From the NCBI GenBank assembly GCA_019429185.1, contig JAHYJH010000017.1, positions 1 through 40,857 of the forward strand: a stretch of DNA of 40,857 nucleotides. The letters run 5' to 3'. This DNA comes from Vicingaceae bacterium. GTDB lineage: Bacteria; Bacteroidota; Bacteroidia; Flavobacteriales_E; Vicingaceae. Below the pieces are notes generated by a model. That model saw only the letters and a list, made by a program, of their open reading frames with translations. It was not told where the DNA came from and did not search any database. Both the position numbers and the translations under genes were made by a program. The stretch's first letter is position 1. Each line of letters starts with the position of its first letter. Below are positions 14,394 to 40,735 of the stretch, in pieces.

Positions 14394-14601
14394 TGGCAAT
14401 GGGCAATGGGCAATGGGCAATGGTTAATAGTCAATGGTTAATAGTCAATGGTTATTTGTTATTTGTTATTTGTTATTTGTTATTTGTTATTTGTTATTTG
14501 ATTTTTGTTATTTGATTTTTGTTATTTGATTTTTGTTATTTGATTTTTGTTATTTGATTTTTGTTATTTGATTTTTGTTATTTGATTTTTGTTATTTGAT
14601 T
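14394..14601. repeat. Compound heptamer array with a progressive change of unit
   Basis: About 208 bases in one 7-base register: TGGCAAT, three GGGCAAT, then alternating GGTTAAT and AGTCAAT, one GGTTATT, six TGTTATT, and finally seven copies of a 14-base unit TGATTTT-TGTTATT (14499-14596). The array runs into the SET gene: its TAA stop (14592-14594, minus strand) and the Lys codon before it are repeat sequence. No promoter or ORF is seen here. Confidence 0.95.
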
Positions 14602-15185
14602 CCGTTGGTATAAAAATTATGCAAGATGGACACCATTTGTTTTTTTCCTTCTGCAACAACTTCAATTTCTTTCCAAGTTTCTTCTGTAATTAAGTTTCTC
14701 AAGGGTTGGTTCACTTTCGTTATTAAGGGAAATGCTTTTTCTAATTTTTTATCCCACACTTTATGATATTTCACTAAATCATTTGGGTAAACAACCTTCC
14801 GTTTTGTTCCTTCATCAATGCCTCTAAATGGAGCTGGGATGTTCAAATACCCATAATCATCGGTAAGTTGTTCTCCTGGTTGTATATCTCTAATAGCAAT
14901 TTCAAAATCATAAGCCGTACTTAAACAATTGGAATTGAAACTGTGATTAACATACCTGCCATTATCCCAACAAAGCACAAAATTGCCATTGTTGTTTCGA
15001 AATGTATAGAAGTCTAAAATATCCTGATAAATAGCATCTAAGGATTGAATTTCTGTGGGAGTAAATTCTCTATCTAACTTGTCTAATGCCCAAGTTATTG
15101 TTCCTTTTGGGATAAACTCTCGAGCTACAACACCGTAGCCAATTTCATTACTGATAAATTTTAATTCAGTGATAGGATGTATCAT
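14592..15185 (-). CDS. SET-domain protein (putative lysine methyltransferase)
   Basis: 197 residues forming a compact SET domain: N-terminal ISNEIGYGVVAREFIPKGTI (the GxGVxAxxxIxxGxxI pattern), the SAM-binding RYVNHSFNSNC (NHSxxxNC) and GEQLTDDYGYLN with the catalytic Tyr region. A post-SET Cys cluster is absent. SET proteins are mostly eukaryotic but occur in bacteria, where most targets are unknown. The final codons are shared with the heptamer array. Monocistronic, divergent from wecB. Confidence 0.85.
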   Translation of the reverse strand: MIHPITELKFISNEIGYGVVAREFIPKGTITWALDKLDREFTPTEIQSLDAIYQDILDFYTFRNNNGNFVLCWDNGRYVNHSFNSNCLSTAYDFEIAIRDIQPGEQLTDDYGYLNIPAPFRGIDEGTKRKVVYPNDLVKYHKVWDKKLEKAFPLITKVNQPLRNLITEETWKEIEVVAEGKKQMVSILHNFYTNGIK

Positions 15186-15399: not shown

Positions 15400-16506
15400 A
15401 TGTCAAAAAAAATAATGCTCGTTGTTGGTACTCGACCAAATTTCATCAAAATAACTCAATTTGAAAAGGAATTGGCTGCTTATGGCAATGCTTTTGAATA
15501 CATTCTTATTCACACCAATCAACATTTTGACACCAACATGTCTGATATTTTTTTTACACAATTAAATCTTAAAAAACCAGAATTTTTAACTATTGCACCA
15601 AGCAGTCCTGCTGCTCAAATTGGTCAAATTATTATTGAACTGGAAAAATCAGTGATAAAACACCAGCCCGATGCACTAATTGTTGTTGGTGATGTTAATT
15701 CTACTTTAGCTGGTGCAATTGTTGGAAATAAAACAAACACCTTATTGTTTCATTTGGAAAGTGGTTTGAGAAGCTACGACAATGAAATGCCTGAAGAAAT
15801 TAATAGACTAATTACCGATTTAGTTGCCGATCATTTTTTTGTAACCGAACAAAGTGGTTATGATAATTTACTTGCCTCAGGTAAATCACCTGAACAAATT
15901 CATTTTGTAGGCAACACCATGATAGATACCTTGGTGGCTTTTGATTCCATTATTCAACAAAATGACATTTTAGAAAAATTAAATTTAGTGAATAAAAGTT
16001 TTGTGTTGATGACCATGCATAGACCTTCAAATGTTGATACAAAAGAAAGATTATTAGTTCTGCTCGACATCATTAATAGAGTGTCGGAAAATAATCATCT
16101 TGTTCTTCCTATTCATCACCGAACCAAAAACAGTTTAATCAAACACAACCTCTTTCATTTATTAGAAAATAACCCAAAAGTTATTATTTCAGAAGCTCTT
16201 GATTATTTGGCTTTTCAAAAATTGATTGCAACATGCAACTATGTGCTTACAGATAGTGGTGGAATTCAAGAGGAAACAACCTATCGGCAAGTACCTTGTT
16301 TAACTTTGAGAGAAAACACCGAAAGACCTAGTACTGTTACGTTGGGCACAAATGAATTGGTTGAATACAATTATGAAGCTGTAGCTGAAAAAATCAACGA
16401 AATTGAAAGTGGTAGCTATAAAAAAGGAACTATTCCTCCACTGTGGGATGGAAAAGCAACCCAACGCATTGTAAAAGTATTGCATGAAATTTTGGTTAAA
16501 AATTAA
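15400..16506 (+). CDS. wecB: UDP-N-acetylglucosamine 2-epimerase, WecB family
   Basis: Non-hydrolysing UDP-GlcNAc 2-epimerase (UDP-ManNAc formation), 368 residues, GT-B fold. Motifs: VVGTRPNFIK, HTNQHFDTNMSDIFF, VVGDVNSTLAGAIVG (catalytic Asp), HLESGLRSYDNEMPEEINR (two catalytic Glu), MTMHRPSNVD (catalytic His), TDSGGIQEE and RENTERPSTVTLGTN. The upstream in-frame ATG at 15370 is rejected because a -7 box lies between the two. UDP-ManNAc serves surface polysaccharides. It is followed, after a gap with an inverted repeat, by the Rpe/CBS - DAHP synthase pair. WecB paralogues acting on other UDP-sugars exist, so the substrate is probable rather than certain. Confidence 0.88.
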   Translation: MSKKIMLVVGTRPNFIKITQFEKELAAYGNAFEYILIHTNQHFDTNMSDIFFTQLNLKKPEFLTIAPSSPAAQIGQIIIELEKSVIKHQPDALIVVGDVNSTLAGAIVGNKTNTLLFHLESGLRSYDNEMPEEINRLITDLVADHFFVTEQSGYDNLLASGKSPEQIHFVGNTMIDTLVAFDSIIQQNDILEKLNLVNKSFVLMTMHRPSNVDTKERLLVLLDIINRVSENNHLVLPIHHRTKNSLIKHNLFHLLENNPKVIISEALDYLAFQKLIATCNYVLTDSGGIQEETTYRQVPCLTLRENTERPSTVTLGTNELVEYNYEAVAEKINEIESGSYKKGTIPPLWDGKATQRIVKVLHEILVKN

Positions 16507-16615
16507 ACTTGAAAAGTGCATATTCGTATATTGCGTGTAACATTTGTGAAATTAAAAAAATTGCAAATTACAACGCATTAAATAGTGTCTGTCCATAAAC
16601 TTGTAAGTCTAAAAA

Positions 16616-16667
16616 ATGTCACGAATACACGAATAAAAAAGAAATAATATTCGTGCATTCGTGGCAT
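16616..16667. repeat. Inverted repeat, 20-base arms
   Basis: Left arm ATGTCACGAATACACGAATA (16616-16635) and right arm 16648-16667 pair at 18 of 20 positions around a 12-base AT-rich loop. It lies between wecB and the Rpe/CBS gene. It may act as the wecB terminator or be one of the small interspersed repeats of this genome. Confidence 0.8.
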
Positions 16668-16689
16668 CTACATTAATCAAAAAATTAAG

Positions 16690-16697
16690 TAGTTTTG
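16690..16697 (+). promoter_or_regulatory. -7 promoter box for the Rpe/CBS - DAHP synthase pair
   Basis: TAGTTTTG matches TAnnTTTG, 27 bases before the ATG at 16725. Confidence 0.55.
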
Positions 16698-16724
16698 ACA
16701 TTACGTAAGTAACATAAAAAATTC

Positions 16725-17726
16725 ATGAAAATATCAGGATCTATCTATTCGGATAACAAAAGACCTTTAAAAGAAACCATTGCAGATTTAGAAGCTCATC
16801 AGGTAGATTTATTGCATGTAGATTGTAATGATGACATTAGTGTTTTTGATGATATTGCTGACATCAGAACATGGTGCAAACTCCCCATAGACTTACATAT
16901 TATTACCAAAACTCCCGAAAAGTATTTTGATTTACTAAGAAAATACCCTGTGGAATACCTTACTTTTCAATATGAAGAGTTGCCTGCAGGTTTTGAAATC
17001 CCATCCGACATTAAAGGACAAAAAGGCTTGGCAATTATAACGCCTACTAATGTTGATGCTTTTGATTCCTTTAGCGATTTTAATTTCATCTTGATAATGG
17101 CAACTATTCCAGGACAAAGTGGTGGTGTTTTTGATCCTATCAACTTTAAAAAAATTAGAAAATTCAAACAAAAATACCCTAATAAAAATGTGCATGTTGA
17201 TGGCGGTGTAAATGGAGAAGTTTCCTTCATTTTAAGAAATATGGGAGTACACACTTCAGTTTCAGGCAGTTTTTTGTTTAAAGCAACCAGTGTCGGTCAA
17301 GCATTAATGGACTTAACCAAGCGAGAAATAGTTTCTCTTTTTAAGATAAAAGATTTTATGATTCCTCGTGAAGAATGTCCGATAATAGACTTCTCTCAAC
17401 TCAATCTTAAAAATATTTTAGAACAAATAACTTTTGGGAAATTAGGCGTAACCTTAGTAGAGAACAATAAAAAATTTGAAGGAATAATTTCTAATGCTGA
17501 TTTAAGAAGAACTTTGTTGCAGAATTTAGACAATATTGAAAGAATGAATACACAGGAAATGATTAACAAAACGCCTGTAACCATTTTAGATACAGCAACA
17601 GTTGATGATATGCTGAATTTAGTAAGAGAACAATCTTTTCCAGTAATGTATCTTCCTGTGCTAAATGCAGATGGAAATGCCGTTGGAATTGTTACTTTTG
17701 TAAACTTGATAAAAGGAGAAATATGA
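16725..17726 (+). CDS. Ribulose-phosphate 3-epimerase-like barrel fused to a CBS pair
   Basis: 333 residues. Residues 1-200 are a TIM barrel of the Rpe family with its metal ligands kept: HVD (His31, Asp33), DLHII (His58), VHVDGGVN (Asp159), and the phosphate loop IPGQSGGVFD (128-137). Residues about 207-333 are two CBS domains (IKDFMIPREE; LGVTLVENNKKFEGIISNAD-LRR; MINKTPVTILDTATVDDML; VGIVTF) closest in style to the CBS pair of arabinose-5-phosphate isomerase KdsD. Rpe normally has no CBS domains, so the fusion is unusual. The stop overlaps the next gene's ATG (ATGA), so the two products are coupled. Predicted: a nucleotide-regulated sugar-phosphate epimerase with an unknown substrate. Confidence 0.8.
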   Translation: MKISGSIYSDNKRPLKETIADLEAHQVDLLHVDCNDDISVFDDIADIRTWCKLPIDLHIITKTPEKYFDLLRKYPVEYLTFQYEELPAGFEIPSDIKGQKGLAIITPTNVDAFDSFSDFNFILIMATIPGQSGGVFDPINFKKIRKFKQKYPNKNVHVDGGVNGEVSFILRNMGVHTSVSGSFLFKATSVGQALMDLTKREIVSLFKIKDFMIPREECPIIDFSQLNLKNILEQITFGKLGVTLVENNKKFEGIISNADLRRTLLQNLDNIERMNTQEMINKTPVTILDTATVDDMLNLVREQSFPVMYLPVLNADGNAVGIVTFVNLIKGEI

Positions 17727-18721
17727 TTATTCATTTAAATAAAGATATTACAGCCGCCACTGCTAGTCAGTTAGCTGAAAAAATTAAAGCTTTTCACATT
17801 CATTCTCAAGAAAGAGAAGTATTAATTACTTCATCATCTGTAAAAGAAGTGCCGAGTGAAGTAGCTGCTTTTACTGAAAAGCACTGGGTGTTTGAAAATG
17901 ATATGCAGCTTGCTTCAAGAGCGTATAGAAATGAAACGCGTGAAGTAAAAATTGGTAACGTAACTATTGGTGGAAACACTAAAAACACCTTGTTGATTGG
18001 TGGACCTTGCTCGGTAGAATCTGAAGAGCAAATTCAACAAAGTGCAGCATTGTTAAAATCGCTTAATTTAACTACGTTAAGAGGCGGTTGCTACAAACCT
18101 CGTACAAGCCCTTATAGTTTTCAAGGGTTGGGTTTGGAAGGATTAAAACTATTAGTTAAAATGCGTGAGCAACATGGTTTGGCGGTTATTACCGAAGTTA
18201 GAGATGCTACACATGTTGATGAAGTGATAGAACATAGTGATGTGATTCAAATTGGTGCTAAAGCGATGTACGACCAAGGTATTTTGCGTGCATGTGCTAA
18301 AACCCGCAAGCCTGTTTTATTAAAAAGAGGTTTCGGAACAACCTTACAAGAATTTGTTCAGGCAGCAGAATTTATGCTTTCTGGAGGGAATGAAAATGTT
18401 ATTTTGTGCGAAAGAGGCATACGTACTTTTGAAACAAAAACACGTTTCACCTTAGATTTATGCGGAGTTGCTTATTTACAAGAATTTACCAATCTGCCTA
18501 TTATTTTAGACCCGAGCCATGCCTTAGGTTATCGTTACGGAATAGAACGCTTATCAAAAGCTTGTGTAGCAATGGGAATTGATGGGTTATTAATAGAAGC
18601 TCATCCAAATCCAGCTGTTGCTAAGTCTGATGCTTCGCAGCAATTAACACACGAATCTTTTGCAGCGTTAAAATCAGCCATAGAACCTGTAGCTAATAGT
18701 GTTGGTTATAAAATTATATAA
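17723..18721 (+). CDS. 3-deoxy-7-phosphoheptulonate (DAHP) synthase, type I-beta
   Basis: 332 residues. The N-terminal 85 residues fit the ferredoxin-like regulatory domain of Thermotoga-type DAHP synthase. The barrel has GGPCSVESEEQ (metal Cys96), KPRTSPYSFQGLG (125-137, KPRTS being typical of DAHP rather than Kdo8P synthases), LLKRGFGTTLQEF, CERGIRTFETKTRF, ILDPSHALGYR and IEAHPNPAVAKSDASQQL. The known reaction is PEP plus erythrose-4-phosphate to DAHP, first step of the shikimate route. No chorismate mutase domain is attached. Its coupling to an epimerase/CBS protein and a KdsC-type phosphatase leaves open that it makes another 3-deoxy sugar acid. Confidence 0.88.
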   Translation: MIIHLNKDITAATASQLAEKIKAFHIHSQEREVLITSSSVKEVPSEVAAFTEKHWVFENDMQLASRAYRNETREVKIGNVTIGGNTKNTLLIGGPCSVESEEQIQQSAALLKSLNLTTLRGGCYKPRTSPYSFQGLGLEGLKLLVKMREQHGLAVITEVRDATHVDEVIEHSDVIQIGAKAMYDQGILRACAKTRKPVLLKRGFGTTLQEFVQAAEFMLSGGNENVILCERGIRTFETKTRFTLDLCGVAYLQEFTNLPIILDPSHALGYRYGIERLSKACVAMGIDGLLIEAHPNPAVAKSDASQQLTHESFAALKSAIEPVANSVGYKII

Positions 18722-18776
18722 TGAAGTTATTTAAATTCCAAACCATAAATTAAAAAATGTTTCTTTTTTCACACTA

Positions 18777-18836
18777 CTTCGTTATTTTCTCTAACCATAG
18801 CTATGGCTATGCTTCTCAAAAATGCTTCGTATTGCA
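18777..18836. repeat. Intergenic element with CTTCGTTATT and a palindrome
   Basis: CTTCGTTATT at 18777-18786 is followed by the perfect 12-base palindrome CCATAGCTATGG (18795-18806) and then a T/C/A-rich tail with ATGCTTCGTATTGCAT. The same decamer occurs on the minus strand at 21248-21257 next to another hairpin. It lies between the DAHP synthase and kdsC-like genes. Confidence 0.55.
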
Positions 18837-18859
18837 TAAAAATAATTCATTTTCATTCT

Positions 18860-18867
18860 TATATTTG
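18860..18867 (+). promoter_or_regulatory. -7 promoter box for the KdsC-like gene
   Basis: TATATTTG matches TAnnTTTG, with a TTG 25 bases upstream (18832-18834) and the ATG 17 bases downstream. The phosphatase can therefore be made apart from the DAHP synthase. Confidence 0.55.
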
Positions 18868-18884
18868 AATTTTAAATAACTTCA

Positions 18885-19559
18885 ATGAAACTCCTTACCC
18901 AAAATATCACCTCATTTTTAGCTCGAGAAAAAAAATCGTTGAATGATTTTTGTGCTGAATATGCTATTGCCAACATCAATGAATTGTCCTTGGGCGATTT
19001 ACAATTTTTCTGCACCAATAATCAGTTAGATATTGAAAATATGCTTACCCGACCAATGTTTGTTGATAGGTCTAAAATAAAAGACATTAAATTATTGATT
19101 TTAGATGTAGATGGTGTTATGACTGATGCAGGGATGTTTTTTACAGAAAATGGCGACCAGTTTAAAAAATACAATGCAAAAGATGGAATGGCTATAATGG
19201 CACTGCCTAAAATTGGGGTTGAAGTTGGAATTATTTCTTCTGGGTTTAAATTAGAAATGGTTAAAGCTCGTGCCGAATTATTAAAAATTAACAACCTTTA
19301 TGTTGGTCAAGAACCTAAGCTAGAAATTCTTAACCAATGGTGCGAAAAACTAAACATTACACTTGCAGAAGTTGCCATTATTGGTGATGATATTAATGAT
19401 TTACCTGTGATGAGAGCTATTGGTTTTAGTGCTTGTCCAGCCGATGCAGTACTAAAAGTAAAAGAAACCGTTGATTTAGTGCTACAAACCAAAGGAGGCG
19501 ATGGCTGTGTGAGAGAATTTATAGACTTTTATTTGTTAGACGAACCATTAACTAAATGA
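18885..19559 (+). CDS. KdsC/YrbI-family HAD phosphatase with N-terminal extension
   Basis: 224 residues. Residues about 66-220 are a small HAD phosphatase of the KdsC (Kdo-8-phosphate phosphatase) type: LLILDVDGVMT (Asp74, Asp76), IISSG (117-121), Lys145 in GQEPKLEI, IIGDDINDLPVM (Asp168, 169, 172), and the KGGDGCVREF tail that inserts into the neighbouring subunit in KdsC tetramers. The first 60 residues are extra; SLGDLQFFCTNNQLDIENML faintly resembles the end of an XRE helix-turn-helix. Normal KdsC proteins are about 170-190 residues. The neighbours suggest that it removes phosphate from a 3-deoxy sugar acid. Its TGA stop sits in a heptamer run. Confidence 0.85.
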   Translation: MKLLTQNITSFLAREKKSLNDFCAEYAIANINELSLGDLQFFCTNNQLDIENMLTRPMFVDRSKIKDIKLLILDVDGVMTDAGMFFTENGDQFKKYNAKDGMAIMALPKIGVEVGIISSGFKLEMVKARAELLKINNLYVGQEPKLEILNQWCEKLNITLAEVAIIGDDINDLPVMRAIGFSACPADAVLKVKETVDLVLQTKGGDGCVREFIDFYLLDEPLTK

Positions 19560-37332: not shown

Positions 37333-37470
37333 TTTTTATGCCACTGATTACACATATTTACGCAGATTTTTTTTCACTGATTGAATTGAAGAATCAAACA
37401 TTTAGAGTGATATTAACCTAAAATCTGCGAATCGAATCAGTGAAAATTAATGTAATCTGCGGCATAAAAA
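37333..37470. repeat. Structured repeat element upstream of the first T9SS protein
   Basis: Ends are TTTTTATGCC (37333-37342) and GGCATAAAAA (37461-37470), continuing inward with GATTACA/TGTAATC. Inside are CGCAGATTTT (37361-37370) with AAAATCTGCG (37420-37429) and TTTTCACTGATT (37371-37382) with AATCAGTGAAAA (37435-37446). These two inner pairs cross, so they are alternative folds. The right end stands 14 bases before the gene's ATG. A near-copy is at 39043-39179. Confidence 0.85.
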
Positions 37471-37484
37471 ATAACACTTACAAT

Positions 37485-39026
37485 ATGAAAAACATACTAC
37501 TTACCTCAGCACTATTTTTAACCACATTATACCTTACCGCACAAGCCCCCACAATTGAATGGCAAAAATCGTTGGGGGGTTCTGGATGGGATAGAGCCTA
37601 TTCCATTGAACAAACCACAGATGGAGGGTATATAGTTGTTGGATATTCTAACTCAGCTAATGGAGATGTAACAGGTAATCAAGGCAATGAAGATTACTGG
37701 GTAGTTAAATTATCTAATACAGGAGCTATCGTTTGGCAAAAATCGTTAGGAGGTTCTGGAAATGATCAAGCAAACTTCATCCAACAAACTATAGATGGTG
37801 GATATATTGTTGCTGGATATTCTAATTCAACTAATGGAGATGTTACAGGTAGTCGTGGTGGTAAGGATTATTGGATAGTTAAATTAGATAGTATAGGCAC
37901 TATCGAATGGCAAAAATCGTTGGGGGGTTCTGGATATGAAGATGCCCATTCTATTCAACAAACCACGGATGGTGGATATATCATTGCTGGTGGTTCAAAC
38001 TCAACTGATGGAGATGTGACAGGTAATCACGGTAGTTATGATTACTGGGTAGTTAAATTATCTAATACAGGGGCTATCACTTGGCAAAAATCCTTAGGGG
38101 GATCTGGATTAGATTTTTCCAATTCCATCCAACAAACCACCGATAATGGGTATGTTGTTGCTGGAAGATCTAACTCAACTGATGGAGATGTAACAGGTAA
38201 TCATGGTGATTCTGATTATTGGGTGGTTAAATTAGATAGTATGGGAACTATCCTTTGGCAAAAATCGTTGGGGGGTTCTGGATATGAAGATGCCCATTCT
38301 ATTCAACAAACAATAGAAGGTGGATATATAGTTGCTGGACAATCTAATTCAATTGATGGAAATGTAATAGGCAATCATGGCTATACTGATTATTGGGTAG
38401 TTAAATTAAATAGCATAGGAACTATCGAATGGCAAAAAGCCTTAGGTGGCTCTGGAAGTGATTGGGGGTTCTCCATCCAACAAACCACTGATGGAGATTA
38501 TATTGTTGCAGGGAGTTCTGAGTCAACTGATGGAGATGTAACAGGTAATCATGGCTATACTGATTATTGGGTAGTTAAACTGTCGAGTACAGGTACTATA
38601 ATTTGGCAAAAATCTTTAGGAGGAAGTGGAAGAGATGTTGGATACTCTATGTATAAAACAACAGATGGAGGTTGTATAGTTGCTGGATTTTCTTGGTCAA
38701 CCGATGGAGATGTAACTGGTAATCATGGTGGTAGTAATGATTACTGGGTAGTTAAATTATCTGCTACTGTTGGAGTAAATGAAATTACTGTATTTAATGA
38801 ATTTAGTGTTTATCCTAACCCAACAAGCAGCCAAATTATGCTTAAGGTAAACACTAATTTAGTAGGTGCTGTTTACACCATTTATGATAACATGGGTAAA
38901 TCAGTAATGTCAGGGAAAATCAACAACGAACATACTGTAATTGAATTGGATAATTTATCTAATGGTATTTATTTGTTTAGTATTGGAGAAAATAGCCAAC
39001 AGACTTTTAAAGTGATTAAAAATTAA
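37485..39026 (+). CDS. Secreted seven-repeat protein with T9SS sorting domain (copy 1)
   Basis: 513 residues from the ATG at 37485; an in-frame GTG at 37440 lies in the repeat element and is rejected. Signal peptide MKNILLTSALFLTTLYLTAQ. Then seven repeats of 58 residues with the pattern WQKSLGGSG-D-A-SIQQTTDGGYIVAG, NSTDGDVTGNHG, DYWVVKL. Seven such units suggest a beta-propeller-like fold; DGDVTGN could bind calcium (inference). The C-terminal 75 residues are a type A T9SS domain (FSVYPNPTSSQIMLKV ... GIYLFSI ... FKVIKN), so it crosses the outer membrane and is anchored or released. Binding partner unknown. Confidence 0.88.
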   Translation: MKNILLTSALFLTTLYLTAQAPTIEWQKSLGGSGWDRAYSIEQTTDGGYIVVGYSNSANGDVTGNQGNEDYWVVKLSNTGAIVWQKSLGGSGNDQANFIQQTIDGGYIVAGYSNSTNGDVTGSRGGKDYWIVKLDSIGTIEWQKSLGGSGYEDAHSIQQTTDGGYIIAGGSNSTDGDVTGNHGSYDYWVVKLSNTGAITWQKSLGGSGLDFSNSIQQTTDNGYVVAGRSNSTDGDVTGNHGDSDYWVVKLDSMGTILWQKSLGGSGYEDAHSIQQTIEGGYIVAGQSNSIDGNVIGNHGYTDYWVVKLNSIGTIEWQKALGGSGSDWGFSIQQTTDGDYIVAGSSESTDGDVTGNHGYTDYWVVKLSSTGTIIWQKSLGGSGRDVGYSMYKTTDGGCIVAGFSWSTDGDVTGNHGGSNDYWVVKLSATVGVNEITVFNEFSVYPNPTSSQIMLKVNTNLVGAVYTIYDNMGKSVMSGKINNEHTVIELDNLSNGIYLFSIGENSQQTFKVIKN

Positions 39027-39042
39027 CAACTACTTAGCCACT

Positions 39043-39179
39043 CTTAATGCCACAGATTACAAATATTTACGCAGATTTTTTTTCACTGATTGAATTGAAG
39101 AATCCAACATTTAGAGTGATATTTACCTAAAATCTGCGAATCGAATCAGTGAAAATTAATGTAATCTGCGGCATAAAAA
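39043..39179. repeat. Structured repeat element upstream of the second T9SS protein
   Basis: Near-identical to 37333-37470, with a handful of substitutions. In this copy the outer stem is ATGCCACAGATTACA against the complement ATGCCGCAGATTACA (one mismatch). It fills the whole gap between the two genes. Confidence 0.85.
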
Positions 39180-39193
39180 ATAACACTTACAAT

Positions 39194-40735
39194 ATGAAAA
39201 ACCTACTACTTACCTCAGCACTATTTTTAACCACATTATACCTTACCGCACAAGCCCCCTCCATTGAGTGGCAAAAATCTTTAGGGGGATCAGGTGATGA
39301 TTTTGGGCATTCCATCCAACAAACCATTGATGGAGGATATATTGTTGCTGGAAATTCCAACTCAACTGATGGAGATGCAACAGGTAATCATGGTGGCTGG
39401 GATTACTGGATTGTTAAACTAGATAACATAGGCACTATCGAATGGCAACAATCTTTAGGTGGAAGTGGTAATGATTTTGGGTGGAGTATTCAACAAACCA
39501 CAGATGGAGGTTATATAGTTGCTGGAAGTTCTAACTCAACTGATGGAGATGTAACAGGTAATAATGGAGGTGCTGATTACTGGGTGGTTAAACTATCAAA
39601 TTTAGGAGCTATCACTTGGCAAAAAAACATAGGAGGGACTGGGAATGATGAAGCAATTTCTATCCAACAAACCACAGATGGAGGGTATATAGTTACTGGA
39701 AGTTCTATCTCAACCGATGGTGATGTAACAGGTAATAATGGTGGTCAGGATTATTGGGTGGTTAAATTAGATAGCACAGGTACTATCATTTGGCAAAAAT
39801 CGTTGGGGGGGTCTGGAAGTGATGTTGCAACTTCCATTCAACAAACCACAGATGGAGGTTATATAGTTGTTGGTTTTTCTTTTTCATCTGATGGAGACTT
39901 AACAGTTAATTACGGCTTTCGTGATTATTGGGTGGTTAAACTAGATGATACAGGCTCTATTACTTGGCAAAAATCTTTAGGGGGTACTTTACTTGATGAA
40001 GCATTTTCAGTACAACAAACCACAGATGGAGGATATGTAGTTGCTGGTCGTTCTAGATCAACTAACGGAGACGTTACTGGAAATCATGGATTTTATGATT
40101 ATTGGGTAGTTAAACTGAGTAGCTCAGGTGCTATAATATGGGAAAAATCGTTGGGGGGAACTGGATGGGATCATGGATTTTCTATACAACAAGCCACAGA
40201 TGGAGGATATGTAGTTGCTGGATATTCAAATTCTACCGATGGAGATGTGACAGGTAATCATGGTATTAGTGATGATTACTGGATTGTTAAACTATCTAAT
40301 ACAGGATCTATTATTTGGCAAAAATCGTTGGGGGGCACAGGGAATGATGTAGGGCAATCCATTCAACAAACCTTAGATGGAGGTTATATAATTACTGGAT
40401 ATTCTAATTCAACCGATGGAGATGTAACAGGTAATCATGGTGTGTATGATTACTGGGTAGTTAAATTATCTGCTACTGTTGGAGTAAATGAAATTACTGC
40501 ATTCAATGAGTTTAGTATTTACCCTAACCCAACAAGTAGCCAAATTACGCTAAAAGTAAACGCTAATTTAGTAGGTACTGTTTACACCATTTATGATAAC
40601 ATGGGTAAATCAGTAATGTCAGGGAAAATCAACAACGAACATACTGTAATTGAATTGGATAATTTATCTAATGGTATTTATTTGTTTAGTATTGGAGAAA
40701 ATAATAAACAGACTTTTAAGGTAATTAAAAATTAA
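39194..40735 (+). CDS. Secreted seven-repeat protein with T9SS sorting domain (copy 2)
   Basis: 513 residues from the ATG at 39194, the tandem paralogue of the previous gene. Same signal peptide (one change), seven 58-residue repeats (WQKSLGGTG, QQTTDGGYIVAG, STDGDVTGNHG, DYWVVKL) and the same T9SS tail with seven changes in about 88 residues. The last 120 or so bases of coding sequence before the final codons are identical between copies, while the repeats differ clearly. That pattern fits a duplication followed by repeat shuffling or gene conversion at the ends. Blade 4 contains a run of seven Gs near 39805. Confidence 0.88.
   Translation: MKNLLLTSALFLTTLYLTAQAPSIEWQKSLGGSGDDFGHSIQQTIDGGYIVAGNSNSTDGDATGNHGGWDYWIVKLDNIGTIEWQQSLGGSGNDFGWSIQQTTDGGYIVAGSSNSTDGDVTGNNGGADYWVVKLSNLGAITWQKNIGGTGNDEAISIQQTTDGGYIVTGSSISTDGDVTGNNGGQDYWVVKLDSTGTIIWQKSLGGSGSDVATSIQQTTDGGYIVVGFSFSSDGDLTVNYGFRDYWVVKLDDTGSITWQKSLGGTLLDEAFSVQQTTDGGYVVAGRSRSTNGDVTGNHGFYDYWVVKLSSSGAIIWEKSLGGTGWDHGFSIQQATDGGYVVAGYSNSTDGDVTGNHGISDDYWIVKLSNTGSIIWQKSLGGTGNDVGQSIQQTLDGGYIITGYSNSTDGDVTGNHGVYDYWVVKLSATVGVNEITAFNEFSIYPNPTSSQITLKVNANLVGTVYTIYDNMGKSVMSGKINNEHTVIELDNLSNGIYLFSIGENNKQTFKVIKN

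Follow-up and report, generated by a model that had tools for sequence, protein, structure and literature searches.

Probable non-orthologous replacement of the enzymes initiating Kdo biosynthesis in some Bacteroidota by an epimerase-CBS fusion and a DAHP-synthase-type protein

3-Deoxy-D-manno-oct-2-ulosonic acid (Kdo) is the sugar through which lipid A is joined to the remaining outer-membrane coat, and, to our knowledge, the KdsD-KdsA route to it is regarded as near-universal among Gram-negative bacteria. Here, we investigated a three-gene operon on a 40,857-nt contig (JAHYJH010000017.1, our contig C173; hereafter, the window) from a Vicingaceae bacterium, the source genome being a 3.66-Mb, 96% complete Bacteroidota assembly with close relatives deposited as Flavobacteriales metagenome-assembled genomes. 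The operon encodes a ribulose-phosphate-3-epimerase-type barrel fused to a pair of CBS domains (Rpe-CBS), a homologue of the type I-beta synthases of 3-deoxy-D-arabino-heptulosonate 7-phosphate (DAHP; the enzymes are abbreviated DAHPS), and a KdsC-type phosphatase. Taken as a whole, it is probably a non-orthologous replacement of the first Kdo biosynthesis steps. That the pair formed by Rpe-CBS and the DAHPS-like synthase stands in for the function of KdsD and KdsA appears very likely, and there is good reason to expect that its product is Kdo itself.

This proposal builds on the distribution of the pair among related genomes, 60 of which were scored for KdsA (TIGR01362) and KdsD (TIGR00393); both were absent wherever Rpe-CBS was present. 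Among the 51 relatives that are at least 90% complete, 14 carry the pair without KdsA or KdsD, 36 carry KdsA without Rpe-CBS, none has both, and the only one with neither (G049) has a truncated KdsA located where a contig ends (Fisher p 1.2e-11, a value that ignores relatedness). The 14 pair genomes include G038, in which the Rpe-type protein is the most divergent (~33% identical) and Pfam detects no CBS domain. KdsD did not exceed its cut-off in any pair genome among the relatives. The survey was extended to 45 further genomes behind the database hits (from Brumimicrobium, Fluviicola, Lishizhenia, Marivirga and others), one of which, L170, is a record already among the relatives (G003) and not independent. 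KdsA was found in 0 of 45 and KdsD in 0 of 44 of them, and all 45 carry a DAHPS-type gene.

The downstream enzymes KdsB and WaaA are retained. KdsB is present in all 60 relatives and in 43 of the 44 genomes behind the database hits, and WaaA in 58 of the 60 relatives, including 13 of the 14 pair genomes. At the residue level, 50 of 53 KdsB positions and 47 of 52 WaaA positions that are near-invariant in KdsA genomes are unchanged in pair genomes, and no position in either protein is specific to one of the two classes. Because the upstream KdsA and KdsD are gone where the pair occurs and both KdsB and WaaA are kept, the pair would be what supplies Kdo, rather than an additional route. The initial annotation had suggested a different acid, for example free 3-deoxy-heptulosonate for a surface glycan, which this pattern does not favour. 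Since KdsB and WaaA are retained without class-specific residues, the product is most likely Kdo; this comparison and the grouping of the KdsC-type phosphatase (see below) argue for Kdo, without proving it.

The gene content given in the initial annotation was confirmed by the open reading frames (ORFs), Pfam and NCBIfam, and the Kdo-pathway shape that it had noticed in the module is borne out. Rpe-CBS (333 aa) is encoded at 16725..17726 of the forward strand, with Pfam matches to Ribul_P_3_epim (E 4.6e-22) and CBS (3.6e-8) in a single protein. Its ORF shares 4 bp (ATGA) with that of the DAHPS-like synthase of 332 aa (17723..18721, +; DAHP_synth_1, 9e-68; TIGR01361, 319 bits against a cut-off of 268), and the gene for a KdsC-type HAD phosphatase of 224 aa follows at 18885..19559 (+; TIGR01670, 150 bits, cut-off 107). 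The synthase and KdsC genes are separated by a 163-bp gap (window 18722-18884), whereas in congeners, G004 among them, the two genes directly adjoin each other; the 163-bp stretch has a 91% copy at C53:13135-13296. A one-genome-per-species contig scan yielded 346 stretches encoding Rpe-CBS, the best 80 of which were fetched for neighbourhood counts. The synthase lies directly after Rpe-CBS in 76 of these 80 loci, mostly with the same 4-bp overlap, and a KdsC-like gene comes next in 73; given this recurrence, the arrangement is not due to chance. A KdsC-like gene nearly always accompanies the pair and the source genome has a further DAHPS (see below), so the genomic circumstances that the initial annotation named as refuting its proposal do not apply. 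Hosts include Brumimicrobium, Fluviicola, Lishizhenia, many Crocinitomicaceae, Marivirga sericea and others, with only two of the 392 genomes of a phylum-wide sample encoding Rpe-CBS, too few for statistics. As the M. sericea protein is 79% identical to that of the source genome, it may, judging by this identity, have moved horizontally.

Rpe-CBS consists of a TIM barrel (residues 1-197) and a CBS pair (residues 205-333; 17337..17723, +), the latter being the putative regulatory half, shared in kind with KdsD. In its AlphaFold2 model (mean pLDDT, the model confidence score, 86.5), the barrel is structurally closest to Rpe 2fli (Z 23.3, 24% identity) and the CBS half to the CBS pair of the arabinose-5-phosphate isomerase KdsD (4o9k). 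The protein resembles Rpe and allulose-6-phosphate 3-epimerase in its fold and in the metal/acid set H31, D33, H58 and D159, which is invariant in Rpe-CBS, but differs from them in its low identity (~24%), the lack of the VPNxxFG loop, the added CBS pair and, when compared to true Rpe, several changes near the metal site. It scores far below the curated Rpe cut-off (TIGR01163; 70 vs 212.6 bits), and a separate true Rpe is encoded in the source genome (C100). Of the features of KdsD, the C-terminal CBS pair is present, but the SIS domain is absent, and TIGR00393/kpsF matches the CBS part only.

The model of the DAHPS-like synthase (pLDDT 89.1), comprising an N-terminal small domain and a barrel, is closest to Thermotoga maritima DAHPS (Z 38), followed by the Kdo 8-phosphate (Kdo8P) synthases (Z ~31). 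With the type I-beta enzymes of T. maritima, P. furiosus and A. pernix it shares the fold, the small domain, the KPRTSPYSFQG motif and the metal ligands (here C96, H266, E292 and D303). It departs from them in the DPSHAxG and beta7-alpha7 loops, and in the segment K180-C191 (KAMYDQGILRAC; 18260..18295, +), where GAKxMYDxGIL replaces the canonical GARNxQNFxLL. Six residues of this segment (K180, Y183, D184, G186, I187 and C191) are shared by all 84 members of the cluster but by none of the 13 canonical DAHPS compared. The segment aligns with the PAFLxR segment of KdsA, which contacts the phosphate of D-arabinose-5-phosphate (Ara5P). The PAFLxR segment has already been probed, as F114 and R117 mutants of the Neisseria meningitidis Kdo8P synthase have been deposited; our search of the open-access literature for it found nothing useful. 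The genomic setting also differs from that of an ordinary DAHPS, the gene being in an operon with Rpe-CBS and KdsC in a genome with a second DAHPS. This second enzyme, the presence of which the initial annotation had raised as a question, is a bifunctional DAHPS-chorismate mutase encoded elsewhere (C229) and can serve aromatic synthesis.

The phosphatase encoded by the third gene retains the HAD motifs DVDGVxTD and GDDxND and falls into one group with a KdsC from G013, to which it is 53% identical and which is encoded in a KdsD-KdsA-KdsC operon. Its N-terminal extension of ~60 aa (window 18885-19070) is variable, being absent in stand-alone KdsC and in some cluster members.

In the proposed scheme, Rpe-CBS would make Ara5P. 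Rpe chemistry takes and returns a proton next to a metal-bound carbonyl, and the same chemistry, shifted by one carbon to the position alpha to the carbonyl of ribose-5-phosphate, would give the C2 epimer, which is Ara5P. We regard this C2 epimerisation as the leading candidate for the exact reaction, with roughly even chances of being correct; isomerisation of ribulose-5-phosphate to Ara5P is a less likely route. The DAHPS-like synthase would then condense Ara5P with phosphoenolpyruvate to Kdo8P, and the KdsC-like phosphatase, alone or together with the stand-alone KdsC that some of these genomes have, would release Kdo for KdsB. The CBS pair may sense a late product such as CMP-Kdo, as is thought for the CBS pair of KdsD. 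The scheme thus resembles the canonical KdsD-KdsA-KdsC system in the proposed order of activities, the CBS pair on the first enzyme, the KdsC-type phosphatase as the last one, and KdsB and WaaA downstream, but its first enzyme is an Rpe barrel instead of an SIS isomerase and its second a type I-beta DAHPS homologue instead of KdsA. Neither a described Rpe-CBS nor a ribose-5-phosphate 2-epimerase was found in the open-access literature, which misses most subscription journals.

The first step also varies among genomes that have KdsA, five of which (G013, G059, G040, G041 and G044) lack KdsD over the cut-off. In G013 and G059, a KdsD consisting of the SIS domain only adjoins KdsA. In the other three, KdsA has a CBS protein encoded next to it; in G040 and G041, this protein is a fusion of a fructose-6-phosphate aldolase (FSA)/transaldolase barrel with CBS, and in G044, it was judged by the position of the CBS match only. 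In other Bacteroidota, fusions of this kind, 334-339 aa long, lie immediately next to KdsA and to a KdsC-like gene that is divergent (L103:5209-6228(-), L104:6451-7458(-), L107:6298-7302(-) and L108:1271-2278(+)). The loci with the fusion beside KdsA (G040, G041, G007 and G034) resemble the Rpe-CBS operon in combining a sugar-phosphate barrel with a CBS pair, an ulosonate-phosphate synthase and a KdsC-like gene, but differ from it in having an aldolase-family barrel and a true KdsA. In a reversible reaction, FsaA of E. coli splits arabinose-5-phosphate into glyceraldehyde-3-phosphate and glycolaldehyde (PMC6900487). Because G040 and G041 have no detectable KdsD, the fusion suggests a third way to Ara5P; no description of such a fusion beside KdsA was found in the open-access literature. 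Considered together with KdsD and Rpe-CBS, the fusions in G040 and G041 mean that, at one and the same pathway step, CBS pairs occur on three kinds of barrel (SIS, FSA and Rpe). These would be three unrelated sugar-phosphate enzymes, each joined to CBS, with two of the families known to be able to make Ara5P.

Several observations weigh against the replacement of KdsD and KdsA by the pair. The synthase has a KPRT of the DAHPS type in place of the KANRS of KdsA, and its beta7-alpha7 loop is short, unlike the long one of KdsA; the curated models score it as a DAHPS, and it fails the curated KdsA model TIGR01362 (118 bits vs 314). Three of the 80 fetched loci (L183-L185) have Rpe-CBS apart from the synthase, but a DAHPS-type gene of suitable length is present at another place in the respective genomes. 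No WaaA match was obtained in G055, which is 100% complete and has both the pair and KdsB. A second, stand-alone KdsC is kept in some pair genomes, including the source genome (G000), where it is encoded at C154:11143-11589 (L120:3129-3629) and is 34% identical to that of the operon. G059 (L130:3729-5445 and L138:753-2140) has DAHPS-like/KdsC genes without Rpe-CBS, along with its SIS-only KdsD and KdsA elsewhere, and is possibly an intermediate or a relic. The number of independent replacements is uncertain as well: the best KdsB tree needs eight switches between the classes, but its well-supported branches force only one, and an independent-pairs test on this tree gives a single pair on such branches and no significance. 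Finally, the enzyme activities of the operon are predictions; the sensing of CMP-Kdo by CBS pairs is putative, with no text on a CMP-Kdo-sensing CBS pair found in the open-access literature; and our literature search did not find the LPS (lipopolysaccharide) structure of these bacteria.

The DAHPS-type features of the synthase, its KPRT and short loop, would also fit a module that makes another 3-deoxy-ulosonic acid, accepted by KdsB and WaaA in place of Kdo and leading to Kdo-free LPS. Candidate acids would be another C8 epimer, or a C7 acid derived from erythrose-4-phosphate or threose-4-phosphate. An Rpe-type epimerase could yield an unusual aldose phosphate, and the changes near the metal site of Rpe-CBS are compatible with this, but KdsB and WaaA show no class-specific residues, the same KdsC subfamily follows KdsA in G013, and the FSA-CBS and SIS-CBS proteins in the same slot point to Ara5P. 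We consider this explanation unlikely, though it is the strongest competitor; if true, an Rpe-fold enzyme together with a DAHPS-fold synthase would give Crocinitomicaceae and relatives an LPS inner core devoid of Kdo. Far less probable is an ordinary shikimate DAHP synthase, with Rpe-CBS feeding pentose-phosphate flux to erythrose-4-phosphate and unseen enzymes covering the loss of KdsA and KdsD. The TIGR01361 equivalog-domain score and the structural proximity to T. maritima DAHPS would suit such an enzyme, but several findings speak against it: a DAHPS-chorismate mutase and an Rpe are encoded separately, the pair and KdsA or KdsD exclude each other, 73 of 80 loci include the KdsC-like gene, and the synthase departs invariantly from canonical DAHPS. 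It is similarly improbable that these bacteria have lost Kdo entirely and use the operon to make an extra ulosonic acid for a surface glycan: a second KdsC-like copy and a WecB gene nearby (in the source genome only) would agree with this, but KdsB and WaaA are kept in nearly all pair genomes, and no CMP-sugar synthetase or glycan genes were seen conserved beside the operon in the fetched loci, in the congener G004 or in two neighbourhoods inspected visually.

Conserved LPS or glycan neighbours were considered and rejected: of the two visually inspected neighbourhoods, one has an alanine-dehydrogenase-like protein and a transporter downstream, and the second has unremarkable ORFs. The WecB-type epimerase that the initial annotation had placed in the module is indeed encoded upstream of Rpe-CBS in the window (15370, or 15400, to 16506; TIGR00236, 278 bits, cut-off 210), but its membership was rejected, as it never adjoins Rpe-CBS in the 80 loci nor in G004. 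Elsewhere in the window, tandem 528-aa proteins made of 58-aa (174-nt) repeats, with near-identical ends, are encoded at 37440-39026 and 39149-40735, and intergenic arrays of 14-bp tandem repeats lie at 14409-14618 and 793-959.

Epimerase-type and DAHP-synthase-type proteins appear never before to have been assigned to starting Kdo synthesis. If the replacement of KdsD and KdsA by the pair is true, the lineages behind the 346 encoding stretches would use an enzyme of the Rpe fold whose activity is probably new, and a Kdo8P synthase would have been recruited a second time, independently. This would fill a gap in pathway reconstruction and expose a likely mis-annotation, in which the two proteins pass for an extra 'DAHP synthase' and 'ribulose-phosphate 3-epimerase'. 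It would also suggest that the first Kdo step arose on three separate occasions, each time with a CBS regulatory module of one kind as its basis.

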